Source: Limnohabitans sp. Rim8 (lineage in GTDB: Bacteria; Pseudomonadota; Gammaproteobacteria; Burkholderiales; Burkholderiaceae_C). From it: a DNA stretch of 62,251 bases. The stretch spans positions 1 through 62,251 of the forward strand of contig CAMDKK010000016.1 in assembly GCA_945901045.1 (NCBI GenBank). The letters are read 5' to 3'. Positions 4,021 through 20,328 of this stretch are shown piece by piece. The notes beneath the pieces are model-generated. The model made no database searches. It saw nothing but the letters and a program-made list of their open reading frames with translations, and was not told the origin of the DNA. Positions within the stretch are counted from its first letter, which is position 1, and each line of letters opens with the position of its first letter. Made by a program: the position numbers and the translations under genes.

Positions 4021-4863
4021 TCACACCCCCTTCAGCGCTCGCTTGACCTGCGATAAACCAGCCCCACCTGCCCAGATCAACATACTCTGAGGCAGTAAAC
4101 GCCGCAAATGCGCCAGCGTTGGGACCACATCGCGAGGAGGGTAAGAAAAACTGAACGTCAGCGCAACCACGTCTACTTTGCACTCAGTGGCCGCCAGCTT
4201 CAAACTGTTCAATGGAATATCGGTTCCAACATTAATGATGTAAGCACCCGCATCTGCCATCACGGCCTCCACCATAAGCAAGCCCAGTTGATGGCGCTCA
4301 CCGGGGGGCATGGCGAATAAGAAAACTGGAGAAAAAGCTTTGGGTATTGATTTGAGTGTTTCTGCAATCAAATAGCGCTCGATCATGGAGGAGCAAAGGT
4401 GTTCGTGGTGCACATCGATTTCACCGCCAGCCCAGGCATCTCCAATACCAATCATCAGTGGCGCGATCGTATCTTTGACAAAGTCCAACATGCTGCGCTT
4501 AGCGCGTTGTTTGCGAAGCAAGGCCTCAAATGCCTCGATGTCGAGGTGACTGAGCAGGCTGATCAAAGCATTCGTGGAGTCTGAGCGCTCTACATGAGGT
4601 TTGAAGAGGTTCAGATCCGCTGCAGTTTTTAAATTTTCGAGTACCGTCTTGGCTACGACATGACCGGGGCGAAATCCCGCTTCTAGCAAGCGTTTGATCA
4701 CCATGAGCCTATCGATGGTGTCGCGTGAATAAATGGCCCTGCCCCTGCCGTCGTATTGCGCTGGGGGAAAGCCAAATCGTTGGCGCCACTTACGCAGCTG
4801 TTCAATGCCAAAGCCCGTTATAAGCTCGATTTCCGACTGTAGAACATAGTTATTCTGTGGCAT
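4021..4863 (-). CDS. MerR-family regulator with B12-binding domain (CarH/LitR type)
   Basis: A 280-residue cytoplasmic transcription regulator. Residues 5-75 form a MerR-type HTH (ITGFGIEQLRKWRQRFGFPP). Residues about 95-160 form the four-helix B12 cap with the diagnostic W-x9-EH motif (W144, E154, H155). Residues about 178-280 form the cobalamin-binding Rossmann domain with E189-x-H191-x-x-G194, so H191 is the expected lower ligand. Known CarH/LitR proteins bind adenosylcobalamin, repress in the dark and release DNA when light breaks the Co-C bond. This protein probably works the same way, possibly on the two flanking winged-helix genes. The residue after W144 is Ala, where Thermus CarH has the His used in the light-state bis-His adduct. 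Confidence 0.9.
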   Translation of the reverse strand: MPQNNYVLQSEIELITGFGIEQLRKWRQRFGFPPAQYDGRGRAIYSRDTIDRLMVIKRLLEAGFRPGHVVAKTVLENLKTAADLNLFKPHVERSDSTNALISLLSHLDIEAFEALLRKQRAKRSMLDFVKDTIAPLMIGIGDAWAGGEIDVHHEHLCSSMIERYLIAETLKSIPKAFSPVFLFAMPPGERHQLGLLMVEAVMADAGAYIINVGTDIPLNSLKLAATECKVDVVALTFSFSYPPRDVVPTLAHLRRLLPQSMLIWAGGAGLSQVKRALKGV

Positions 4864-17941: not shown

Positions 17942-17971
17942 AAAAGCCACTGACCGAAATCAGTGGCTTTT
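17942..17971. terminator. Bidirectional terminator between cyclase gene and tRNA-Ile
   Basis: AAAAGCCACTGA and TCAGTGGCTTTT form a 12-bp stem with a six-base loop. It can end the plus-strand cyclase transcript and the minus-strand tRNA transcript, whose CCA end is six bases away. Confidence 0.85.
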
Positions 17972-17977
17972 CATTGT

Positions 17978-18305
17978 TGGTGGGCCCACCAGGACTTGAA
18001 CCTGGGACCAAAGGATTATGCTTACTACTACAGTTTTCACTGCCTGTTTCCAGTTTGTAGTCTGGACTGTCTCTTGTCTTTACGACCTACCCGTACAGTC
18101 TCTACACCTTCCAAATATCGCTATTTGGCTTGGCTCGGGATTACCACGCGTTAAAGCACAGGCTTCCCCGAATTTGAGTAGTTCTACATGAGGGCAGAGT
18201 TAACTTGCTCACATGCAACCCAATTGCAAGCAGCCATGACACTCAGCGTGCTTTAGGCTTTCTGCTCTTTAAGTCCTCTGCTCTAACCAACTGAGCTATA
18301 GGCCC
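17978..18305 (-). tRNA. tRNA-Ile (CAU), split by a group I intron
   Basis: The two exons assemble into a standard 77-nt tRNA with encoded CCA. The acceptor stem is GGGCCTA/TGGGCCC, the D-arm TAGCTCAGTTGGTTAGAGC, the anticodon arm GAGGA-CTCATAA-TCCTT and the T-arm CCAGGTTCAAGTCCTGG. The CAT anticodon together with AAT after it and the overall sequence match tRNA-Ile2, whose C34 is changed to lysidine by TilS to read AUA. Exon 1 is 18272-18305 and exon 2 is 17978-18020; the break falls between U33 and C34. A TACAAT box lies about 10 bases upstream of the 5' end. The gene lies 93 bases downstream of hrcA. Confidence 0.93.
18021..18271 (-). ncRNA. Group I intron (IC3-like) in the tRNA-Ile anticodon loop
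   Basis: 251 nt, without an open frame for a homing endonuclease. The P4 strands TCGGG (18167-18171) and CCCGA (18135-18139) lie in CTCAAATTCGGGGAAGCC and AATCCCGAGCCAAGCC, both close to the consensus of bacterial tRNA introns. The P7 strands GACTGT (18095-18100) and ACAGTC (18065-18070) are perfectly complementary, next to the AAGGTGTAGAGACTGTACGG R-like segment. CTTGC/GCAAG forms a P2-like stem. The intron ends in G, as group I introns do. The boundaries follow from restoring a normal anticodon loop; the P1 pairing is not fully resolved. Self-splicing is expected but inferred. Confidence 0.9.
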
Positions 18306-18398
18306 TGATCGGTGATTGTACTTGACCCCTTTTAACGCAGGTTTCGCAACTGAAAATTTTCTTAAATTAAGAGAATTTGGCTGCGGTTCGGTATTTTC

Positions 18399-19403
18399 TT
18401 ACTTGGACTTGCTCAGCGCATTGCCAATCAAACGCGAAGTGATGTCCACGATTTGGATCATGCGTTCATAGGGCATTCGGGTGGGGCCAATGACACCCAA
18501 AGTACCAACCACATGTCCGTCCACCTCGTAGGGGGCGGTAACAACCGACAGCTCTTGCATGGGCACAATTTGGCTTTCACTTCCGATGTAAATTCGCACT
18601 CCTGCGGCCTGGCTGGAGACATCCAGCAAGCGCATGATTTGCGTTTTTTGCTCAAACAAATCGAAAGCTCTGCGCAAATGCCCCATGTCACCAGAAAAAT
18701 CGCTGACCGAAAGCAAATTACGCTCTCCCGAAATGACCACCTCATCGCGGTCTTGTGTTATCGCTTCTGAGCTGATTTGAACGGCCGCTTGCATCAAACT
18801 GGCGATCTCACTTTGCAGGCTCAGCAATTCTTGTTTGACACGTGTACGTACTTCTTCAATGGCCATGCCCGCATAATGAGAGTTCAAAAAATTTGAAGCT
18901 TCGATCAACTGATTCTGTGCAAAATCACTTTCAGTAAAAATAACGCGGTTTTGCACGTCCCCCTCGGGAGAAACGATGATGACCAAAATCCGTTTTTCAG
19001 ACAATCGCAAAAATTCAATGTGCCTGAATACCGATGACCTTTTGGGCGCCATCACCACCCCCACAAACTGAGACAAGCTCGACAGCAAATGGGCAGCGTT
19101 AGCAATCACCTTTTGTGGCTGATCGGGGGCCAGACTCGGCGTAAGAAGTGATTCACGTTGGGCCGTCAACATGGTGTCAACAAAAAGTCTGTACCCTAGG
19201 GTGGTCGGGATGCGGCCAGCCGAAGTATGTGGACTGGCAATCAGCCCCATCTCCTCTAGGTCCGACATGACATTGCGGATGGTGGCTGGCGACAAATCCA
19301 GGCCGGAGGCTTTGGAAAGCGTGCGTGATCCTACCGGCTGTCCCTCAGCAATGTAGCGCTCGACCAGCGCTTTGAGTAATAACTTGGCACGATCGTCCAG
19401 CAT
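18399..19403 (-). CDS. hrcA: Heat-inducible transcription repressor HrcA
   Basis: 334-residue repressor of class I heat-shock genes, which binds CIRCE elements upstream of groESL or dnaK and is helped by GroEL. The N-terminal winged helix ([39 protein letters not shown]) and the C-terminal [20 protein letters not shown] block are typical. I find no CIRCE inverted repeat in its own upstream region. It is divergent from nadK with only 28 bases between the start codons, so promoters must overlap the neighbouring coding sequence. Confidence 0.95.
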
Positions 19404-19431: not shown

Positions 19432-20328
19432 ATGAAACCCAAATTCCGTCATGTTGCGCTATTTGGCAAGCACCACACCACCATTTCGGGGGCTGCGCTG
19501 GAGAGTTCGCGCAGGGTGCTCGACGATGTCGCGCATTTTTTAAGCCGCCAAGGTTGCGATGTCGTGCTCGACCCGGACACGGCCTTGTATGCGGGTTTGT
19601 CACAATACCCCAGCATGACTATCGCAGAAATAGGCGCCCAATGTGATGCCGGCTTGGTCATCGGCGGGGACGGCACCATGCTCGGCATTGGGCGGCAAAT
19701 TGCCCGCTACGGCTTGCCGCTCATTGGCATCAACCAAGGCCGATTGGGATTCATCACCGATATCCCCATCGACAAATACCAAGAAACGCTTCAGCCCATA
19801 TTGAATGGCCAGTTCGAGTCTGAAGAACGTTGTGTTTTACAAGCCAAAGTCCTACGTGACAGCGACTGTGTTTTTGATGCCTTGGCTTTGAACGACGTGG
19901 TTGTGTACCGTGGCGGCACATCAGGCATGGTTGAATTGCGCGTCGAAGTGGATGGGCGATTTGTGTCCAACCAGCGCGCTGACGGTTTGATTATCGCCAC
20001 ACCCACAGGCTCTACGGCCTACTCCTTGTCTGCGGGGGGCCCCTTGATGCACCCCTCGATTGGCGGCTGGGTGATGGCACCCATTGCCCCGCACACGCTT
20101 TCCAACCGTCCGATTGTCCTATCGGACAGCTCAGAAATCAGCATCGAGGTCGTTTCAGGGCGCAATGCCAGCGCGAACTTTGACATGCAGTCATTGGCTT
20201 CTTTGCTGATCGGCGACCGTGTCATGGTGCGTCGGTCTGAACACCGTGTACGTTTTTTGCATCCCGCAGGCTGGAATTATTTTGATACCTTGAGAAAAAA
20301 AATGCATTGGAACGAGGGAGGCTCCTGA
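19432..20328 (+). CDS. nadK: NAD kinase
   Basis: 298-residue ATP-dependent NAD kinase, the source of NADP. It has GGDGTMLG at about residues 77-84, LND with [15 protein letters not shown], and [15 protein letters not shown], the nucleotide-binding block of the family. The ATG at 19432 is preferred to a TTG two codons upstream. It is followed after three bases by recN, giving the nadK-recN order common in proteobacteria. Confidence 0.96.

Follow-up and report, generated by a model that had tools for sequence, protein, structure and literature searches.

A tRNA gene of Limnohabitans sp. Rim8 becomes complete only when 251 nt are taken out of its anticodon loop, which raises the questions of what interrupts the gene, whether the interruption is spliced and why it sits in this loop. 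The gene lies on the minus strand of the window, by which we mean the whole stretch of 62,251 nucleotides analyzed here. We consider it very probable that the interruption is a group I intron that would have to be spliced from what appears to be the only tRNA-Ile2(CAU) gene of the genome, and that it belongs to a lineage inserted between positions 33 and 34, whose intron-bearing tRNA genes are carried by integrative elements in relatives; the window copy may share this history.

The split tRNA-Ile2(CAU) gene and its intron

Exon 1 (G1 to U33; 18272–18305, minus strand) and exon 2 (C34 to CCA; 17978–18020, minus strand) were delimited through intron-less relatives and ARAGORN on the spliced gene, and the intron between them (18021–18271, minus strand; 251 nt, U...AAG) by an Rfam E-value search, alignment and covariation. 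When the exons 18305-18272 and 18020-17978 were joined, ARAGORN returned a 77-nt cloverleaf with the anticodon CAU, so that the tRNA is rebuilt by removing the 251 nt, as an earlier note on this DNA had proposed. The first base of exon 2 is presumably the C that TilS would turn into lysidine. The gene was absent from the ARAGORN list of the unspliced window, which held only tRNA-Arg and tRNA-Gln, and Rfam at the gathering score over the whole window likewise listed just these two. Gene finders can thus miss the sole tRNA-Ile2 of such genomes because it is split by an intron.

The same tRNA is uninterrupted in four genomes of the genus (G003, G012, G031 and G027), where the matches to exon 1 and exon 2 meet without a gap, at query bases 34 and 286; the length of 251 nt and the U33/C34 site given in the earlier note are thereby fixed. 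The intron was found at the identical site, with 87–90% identity, in G001, G020 and G034. The upstream flanks of G020 (L032) and G003 (L037) are alike, with the intron present in the former and absent from the latter, and the two look like a plus/minus intron pair at one locus. Comparison with relatives confirmed the window observation of an intron-split tRNA-Ile2. Upstream, the gene is neighbored by hrcA (18399–19403, minus strand), and a −10-like TACAAT (18315–18320, minus strand) lies inside the promoter-like stretch AAAAGGGGTCAAGTACAATCA, while a sigma-70 promoter scan at the split gene gave no promoter. On the 3′ side, a terminator-like hairpin with a T run (17942–17971) was reported by the scan on the plus strand, and the palindrome also serves the minus strand.

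Next, we analyzed the group I nature of the intron. RF00028 matched 18239-18040 with 24.5 bits and E = 3e-4 (451 bases searched), below the gathering score of 50 bits, which is a curated threshold and no biological feature. At E <= 0.01, 10 of 15 homologous 33/34 loci scanned were matched, L035, L036, L055, L064 and L068 were without a match, and none of the 15 exceeded the gathering score. The lack of a group I covariance hit, which the earlier note had named as evidence against its reading, is therefore real at the gathering score and disappears in the E-value search and in covariation. Comparative covariation gave much stronger support than the RF00028 score. From 82 distinct 33/34 introns extracted (loci L157-L195 left out), four longer than 300 nt and the window copy were set aside, and the remaining 77 were thinned to 54, which together with the window intron formed the alignment A1 (n = 55). 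The structure, comprising P1, a P1 extension, P2, P3–P9 and the P3/P7 pseudoknot, was hand-written. In A1, 89.7% of its cells were paired compared to 73.2% after shuffling, which related sequences can also beat, and at most 43.9% when slid by 1–3 columns, a control that favours the structure on paired cells since it was drawn on one member. Double-change cells numbered 683 against 232 shuffled and at most 201 slid by 1–3 columns, and the covariation score was 0.430 against 0.156 shuffled and at most 0.097 slid. The group I assignment of the earlier note was borne out by this covariation over 55 introns and the E-value of RF00028.

All of the following elements are on the minus strand. The 5′ strand of P1 (18269–18275) is formed by G30, A31, C32 and U33 followed by the intron bases U (+1), A and A, and its 3′ strand with the guide sequence (UUGGGUU) occupies 18217–18223. 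The 5′ strands of P3 (CUACUC, 18176–18181), P4 (UCGGGG, 18166–18171) and P7 (GACUGU, 18095–18100) have their partners at 18087-18092, 18135-18140 and 18065-18070, with P7 pseudoknotted with P3. In A1, P3 was paired in 95.8% of cells with both-side changes in 6/6 pairs, and P7 in 94.2% with both-side changes in 2/6 pairs. The P1 pairs A31-U, C32-G and U33.G were kept in 55/55 introns. Pairing was weakest at the base of P1, where the 17-63 pair is broken in 35/48, at two pairs of P5 and in the extension of P1 (74.1% paired). A plain fold of the intron alone, to which the pseudoknot is invisible, was modestly stable (z −2.15). A P1 of the form CUU/GAG with a 3-nt loop, modelled on cyanobacterial tRNA-Leu introns, was rejected, as the GGGUY guide is conserved and fits the homologues. 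The terminal (omega) G at 18021 and the exon start CATAATCC were invariant across the 55 aligned introns, although for the G this is partly built in: the pattern used to retrieve the named loci required this G and all introns were cut before G, whereas the order-survey loci were found by BLAST with no terminal G demanded.

From these elements a splicing path can be proposed. A guanosine would attack after U33, which the guide GGUU would hold in P1 as a U.G pair, and U33 would then attack after the terminal G, so that U33 is joined to C34. The anticodon loop would form only after splicing, upon which TilS would convert C34 and AUA could be read. Since U33 and the +1 base both face G in P1, a 5′ splice site shifted by one base is compatible with the pairing alone; it is excluded because of the tRNA and not by P1 pairing. 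It is very improbable that splicing occurs one base later at the 5′ site and after the C at the 3′ site, giving tRNA-Ile(UAU), or that it yields another loop, even though ARAGORN interprets the unspliced L031 as a Leu TAA gene whose intron lies at 38: a G closes the intron directly before CAT in 55/55, +1 is C in 3/55 with U33 invariant, intron-less genes read CAT, and TilS is present. We give the same very low weight to a decayed gene whose intron no longer splices. The Rfam score under gathering would fit decay; against it, the core pairs are intact, no second copy was found, and the arrangement is kept in G020, G001 and G034.

The dependence of AUA reading on this gene, also claimed by the earlier note, was then examined. 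A second tRNA-Ile2 was not found among 31 tRNA matches in the genome, of which 30 were read; the other CAT tRNAs among these 30 are one elongator-type Met and one initiator. The claim of a single copy thus stands for the assembly, which is 94% complete, so that a missed second tRNA-Ile2 is possible. The lysidine synthase TilS on which AUA decoding would depend is present at G000:C41 (140.9 bits against a cut-off of 93.6), and in ten ORFs close to the gene 17 of the 174 Ile codons are AUA. Across the order, the intron-less pattern GGACTCATAATCCNTTGGT was matched in 317 of 399 genomes, and 18 of the 19 genomes with a 33/34 intron had no such match, the exception being G164 (Fisher 1e-12, relatedness ignored). 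The 33/34-intron copy is, by these matches, usually the sole tRNA-Ile2 of its genome. Splicing should be essential for AUA reading, because the gene appears to be the sole tRNA-Ile2, TilS is present and AUA is used; its loss may then be lethal, as the earlier note expected. The site, core, guide pairing, conservation and single copy in the assembly are read directly from sequence, and from them we infer the splicing chemistry and its necessity.

Spread and lineages of the anticodon-loop introns

The insertion turned out not to be a local oddity. A BLAST query with the intron gave a match in 25 of 399 genomes of the order, and reading of the exons placed a 33/34 intron in tRNA-Ile2 in 19 of the 399, the window included, a minimum given that the search relied on a BLAST query. 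The six other matches were to tRNA-Leu (L070, L071), tRNA-Arg (L073), tRNA-Thr (L072), a 36/37 tRNA-Ile (L075) and a non-tRNA place (L074); in G258, a second place (L076) lies at the edge of a contig. The collection genome_contigs, with one genome per species for 84,980 species, was searched with a 3′-junction pattern and gave at least 119 stretches. Among the 119 matches listed, 101 had both exons and a P7 motif, nine had P7 and no visible 5′ exon, and nine had neither. Taxa named in the titles of these 101 records include Burkholderiales, Neisseriales, Rhodocyclales, Pseudomonas and Halotalea, as well as Acidobacteria, Pyrinomonadaceae, Opitutia and a Thermoflexus MAG, with binning errors possible for MAG-derived taxa. 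By these matches, the 33/34 intron class is widespread in several phyla.

Several individual introns and matches were also observed. In G450 (L233, 1713-2019), the 33/34 intron is 307 nt long with an apparently tandem-repeated P3/P7-P9 stretch. Acidobacterial 33/34 introns reach 642 nt (L099, 5196-5837) and 594 nt (L149, 4541-5134), and contain antisense open frames of 143 and 137 aa, respectively, counted stop to stop. Of three viral-contig matches, one, on the viral-classed contig IMGVR_UViG_3300021963_000097 (L244), is a short 33/34 intron in tRNA-Ile2; L245 holds only the 3′ end and L246 no intron. None of the 78 matching records of the phage collection and none of the six of the plasmid collection covered 80% of the query in one place. 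In Pelagibacter phage HTVC120P, positions 19653-19801 (L247), between two CDS both named capsid protein, are 72% identical in DNA to part of the intron core; this stretch is perhaps an unannotated intron, and Rfam gave no match to it at E <= 0.01.

Several genomes of the same genus carry a shorter intron after CAU in the same tRNA (L043 and others). This 36/37 site is the position of the Azoarcus intron. A core tree was calculated from 71 introns over 165 columns. In this tree, all 14 tRNA-Ile 36/37 introns formed one clade (UFBoot 100), outside which 52 33/34 introns fell, in agreement with the separate origin that the earlier note had considered. The tree thus supported separate intron lineages at the two sites, whereas a single origin of all 33/34 introns was not supported: seven Opitutia 33/34 introns formed their own clade (100) on the side of the 36/37, Leu and Arg introns (support 89), and may represent a further arrival. 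The tRNA-Thr(UGU) gene L072 (G309:C9:5269-5351), whose group I intron follows the anticodon and scored 57.7 bits with RF00028, above gathering, was a long branch.

The window intron and the Azoarcus-type intron of pre-tRNA-Ile(CAU) share the tRNA, a small size and a core of the same kind. However, the Azoarcus-type introns, represented here by relatives (L043, L075, L218 and others), are inserted after the anticodon, whereas the window intron precedes it; the former form their own clade and the 33/34 introns lie outside it. The window intron thus shows neither the site after the anticodon nor the grouping with 36/37 introns, and the earlier note was right that its site is distinct. Introns of tRNA-Leu(UAA) (34/35) and tRNA-Arg(CCU) (36/37), met in L070, L071, L044 and L073, are similar in core and also lie in the anticodon loop, but differ in tRNA and site. 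In the tRNA-Arg(CCU) genes L044, which is in the genus of the window, and L073, the group I intron follows CCU. With tRNAscan-SE 2.0 (PMC8450103), group I introns had already been reported for tRNA-Ile2 in Acidovorax and Burkholderia; they are in the same gene and order and possibly of the same class, and the accessible part of that paper gives no insertion position, structure or link to islands. According to the portion available of a 2014 review (PMC4033280), most bacterial tRNA group I introns are placed at 37/38; parts of Hausner 2014 (PMC3984707) were among the literature drawn on. Introns in the tmRNA T-loop (PMC11915505) also sit inside a frequent island target gene, but they concern another RNA and another loop, and replacement copies are not described in the text consulted.

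Integrative elements at tRNA-Ile2 in relatives

The earlier note did not mention any link to integrative elements targeting this anticodon loop. In relatives, the native tRNA-Ile2 is split by such elements at CTCATAA in the anticodon loop. Their attL consists of the native 5′ half ending in CTCATAA followed by non-tRNA DNA, and their attR of element DNA followed by CTCATAA and the native 3′ half. They carry a complete replacement tRNA-Ile2, mostly intron-bearing. The clearest case, on one contig, is G006, in which 17,717 bp lie between the CTCATAA repeats. Joining of its flanks gave an intact tRNA-Ile2, and the upstream flank matched that of G031 at 190 of 200 positions. The tRNA within this element is a different tRNA-Ile2 species (GGGGCGT..ACGCCCT) with a 36/37 intron. 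In many element loci hrcA lies upstream, as in the window, and in many relatives it is a marker of the native tRNA-Ile2 locus.

Near the G006 element, a 466-aa protein (L200:2534-3934) matched a PHROGs integrase (6e-10) and had no match in Pfam; a short phage-integrase-family gene and a type III restriction-modification pair were also found. By tblastn, homologues of this integrase were detected in L119, L127 and L155, three of the 18 named loci with a truncated native half, in several of which the sequence available downstream is short. The island of G001 showed neither a Phage_integrase match among the 10 proteins of the region scanned nor a homologue of the 466-aa integrase; thus, it may move in trans or be decayed. 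Elsewhere, such tRNAs are followed, among others, by acyl-CoA dehydrogenase and ETF genes (G001) and by the defence candidates Lamassu LmuB (L128), PDC-M68 (L174) and PDC-S54 (L155).

These elements resemble the tRNA islands of Islander and the tycheposons in having an integrase gene, a tRNA att site and metabolic or defence cargo, as far as the accessible text of the two sources goes (PMC4383910, PMC10872708). In the Islander scheme, as its available part describes it (PMC4383910), the target is restored by a piece of the tRNA that attP brings in, whereas the elements of the relatives leave the halves broken and supply a whole, separate tRNA. The classical island pattern, in which an unbroken intron-less tRNA is followed at a distance by 3′ halves, was seen in G003 and G012; in G006 and G001 no fragment restores the tRNA, both native halves are broken and the whole replacement lies inside the element. 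In L202 (G003:C3) and L199 (G001), tandem cassettes about 0.8 to 14 kb apart each end in the att-like CTCATAATCC and a tRNA-Ile2 3′ half. L204 (G027:C25) holds an intact intron-less tRNA-Ile2 at 2211 and, at 4235, a 36/37-type intron 3′ end with exon 2, which looks like the remainder of a split intron gene.

Within the window itself, neither a truncated half nor a second 3′ half of this tRNA was found. The hrcA relatives L239 and L243, which are 91–92% identical and island-bearing, have a native tRNA of GGGGCGT type, in contrast to the GGGCCTA type of the window, and the promoter-like AAAAGGGGTCAAGTACAATCA is similar to the promoter of copies carried by elements (AAAAGGGGCAAAGTACAATCA in L243). 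On account of the tRNA type and this element-like promoter, the window copy may have stayed behind as a replacement when its element was lost. This reading is weakened by the same promoter core standing before intron-less copies in G003 (L037) and G027 (L204).

Introns in replacement copies

We then counted introns in element-borne and stand-alone copies; relatedness inflates all of these counts. The truncation pattern TTAGAGCAGNGGACTCATAAV, which misses truncations continuing with T, was found in 14 of 90 genus genomes. Eleven of these were resolved, and all 11 replacements carried an intron (six at 33/34, five at 36/37); the remaining three end at a contig edge. A wider pattern was applied to the 90 genomes, the matches listed being classed by eye and tRNA-Lys, non-tRNA rows and the copy-less truncations of G452, G465 and G473 being left out. 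Among the matches listed, an intron was present in 14/14 element-borne copies and 12/39 stand-alone ones (Fisher 4e-6, relatedness ignored). In the order, TTAGAGCAGNGGACTCATAAV gave 12 places in 11 of 399 genomes. L218, L223 and L224 among them are 36/37 introns and no truncations, and the other places are in eight genomes. The replacement bears an intron in G077 and G297 (33/34) and in G428 and G066 (36/37), and is intron-less in G403 and G386; no replacement was seen within 1.2 kb in G314, and the place in G324 is cut off by the contig edge. Outside the genus, therefore, 4/6 replacements have an intron, compared to 21/336 for the rest (Fisher 3e-4, a rough value, as 36/37 introns were outside the survey and genomes stand in for copies).

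Among the 119 named loci listed, 18 have a truncated native half about 140–240 nt before the intron tRNA (L139, 'intact' upstream by the rule though its letters look truncated, was left out), and 77 have no other tRNA half in the upstream stretch read. The replacement is of another tRNA species in L088, L116, L126, L127, L142, L146, L155 and L170. In the Pseudomonas loci L093 and L104, the native tRNA looks intact, 17 nt of its 3′ half being visible, and a foreign copy with an intron follows about 90 nt past its 5′ half.

Two explanations of the association have to be weighed. In the first, the intron would mask the replacement: the target loop of the integrase is split in DNA and would be whole again after self-splicing. 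Elements would break the native gene at CTCATAA while providing a replacement that bears an intron. An integrase cut at the anticodon loop would destroy the only AUA-reading gene of a host, but an intron-split copy would be untouchable by the element's own integrase, because both intron sites cut the 7-nt core and leave no contiguous target. The host could then lose the element by exact excision only. Separate 33/34 and 36/37 lineages would have been recruited, and stand-alone intron genes would be leftovers. We regard masking as a tentative explanation, somewhat short of an even chance, because of the intron-less exceptions and relatedness, and as the reading is based on sequence comparison.

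In the second explanation, selfish, formerly homing introns hitch-hike: captured copies would have spread on islands with no role in integration. A homing past would fit the antisense frames of L099 and L149, in which paired Cys and HNH-like motifs were seen by eye, with a match to PF21368 (AI2M-like_HNH; E 0.0084, below cut-off) in L099 only and a weak PLATZ match in both. The intron-less replacements of G403 and G386 (two of the six resolvable truncations outside the genus), the 77 of 119 listed loci lacking an upstream half and the inflation of intron/element counts by relatedness are in line with it as well. However, the replacements span the separate 33/34 and 36/37 lineages and different tRNA species, so one capture does not explain them, and the 14/14 against 12/39 in the genus, among the matches listed, also speaks against it. 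This second explanation is a serious possibility on which we would nonetheless not bet.

Bacterial tRNA group I introns are usually regarded as neutral parasites. Among the papers listed, none was found to link them with island replacement in its title or the start of its abstract, most subscription papers lying outside this search, which is no proof of novelty for the intron/island link. If masking applies, tRNA introns may have a selective role in shielding an essential tRNA from anticodon-loop integrases, and AUA decoding in these bacteria would depend on a ribozyme. The question of why such introns favour anticodon loops would thereby become addressable by experiment.
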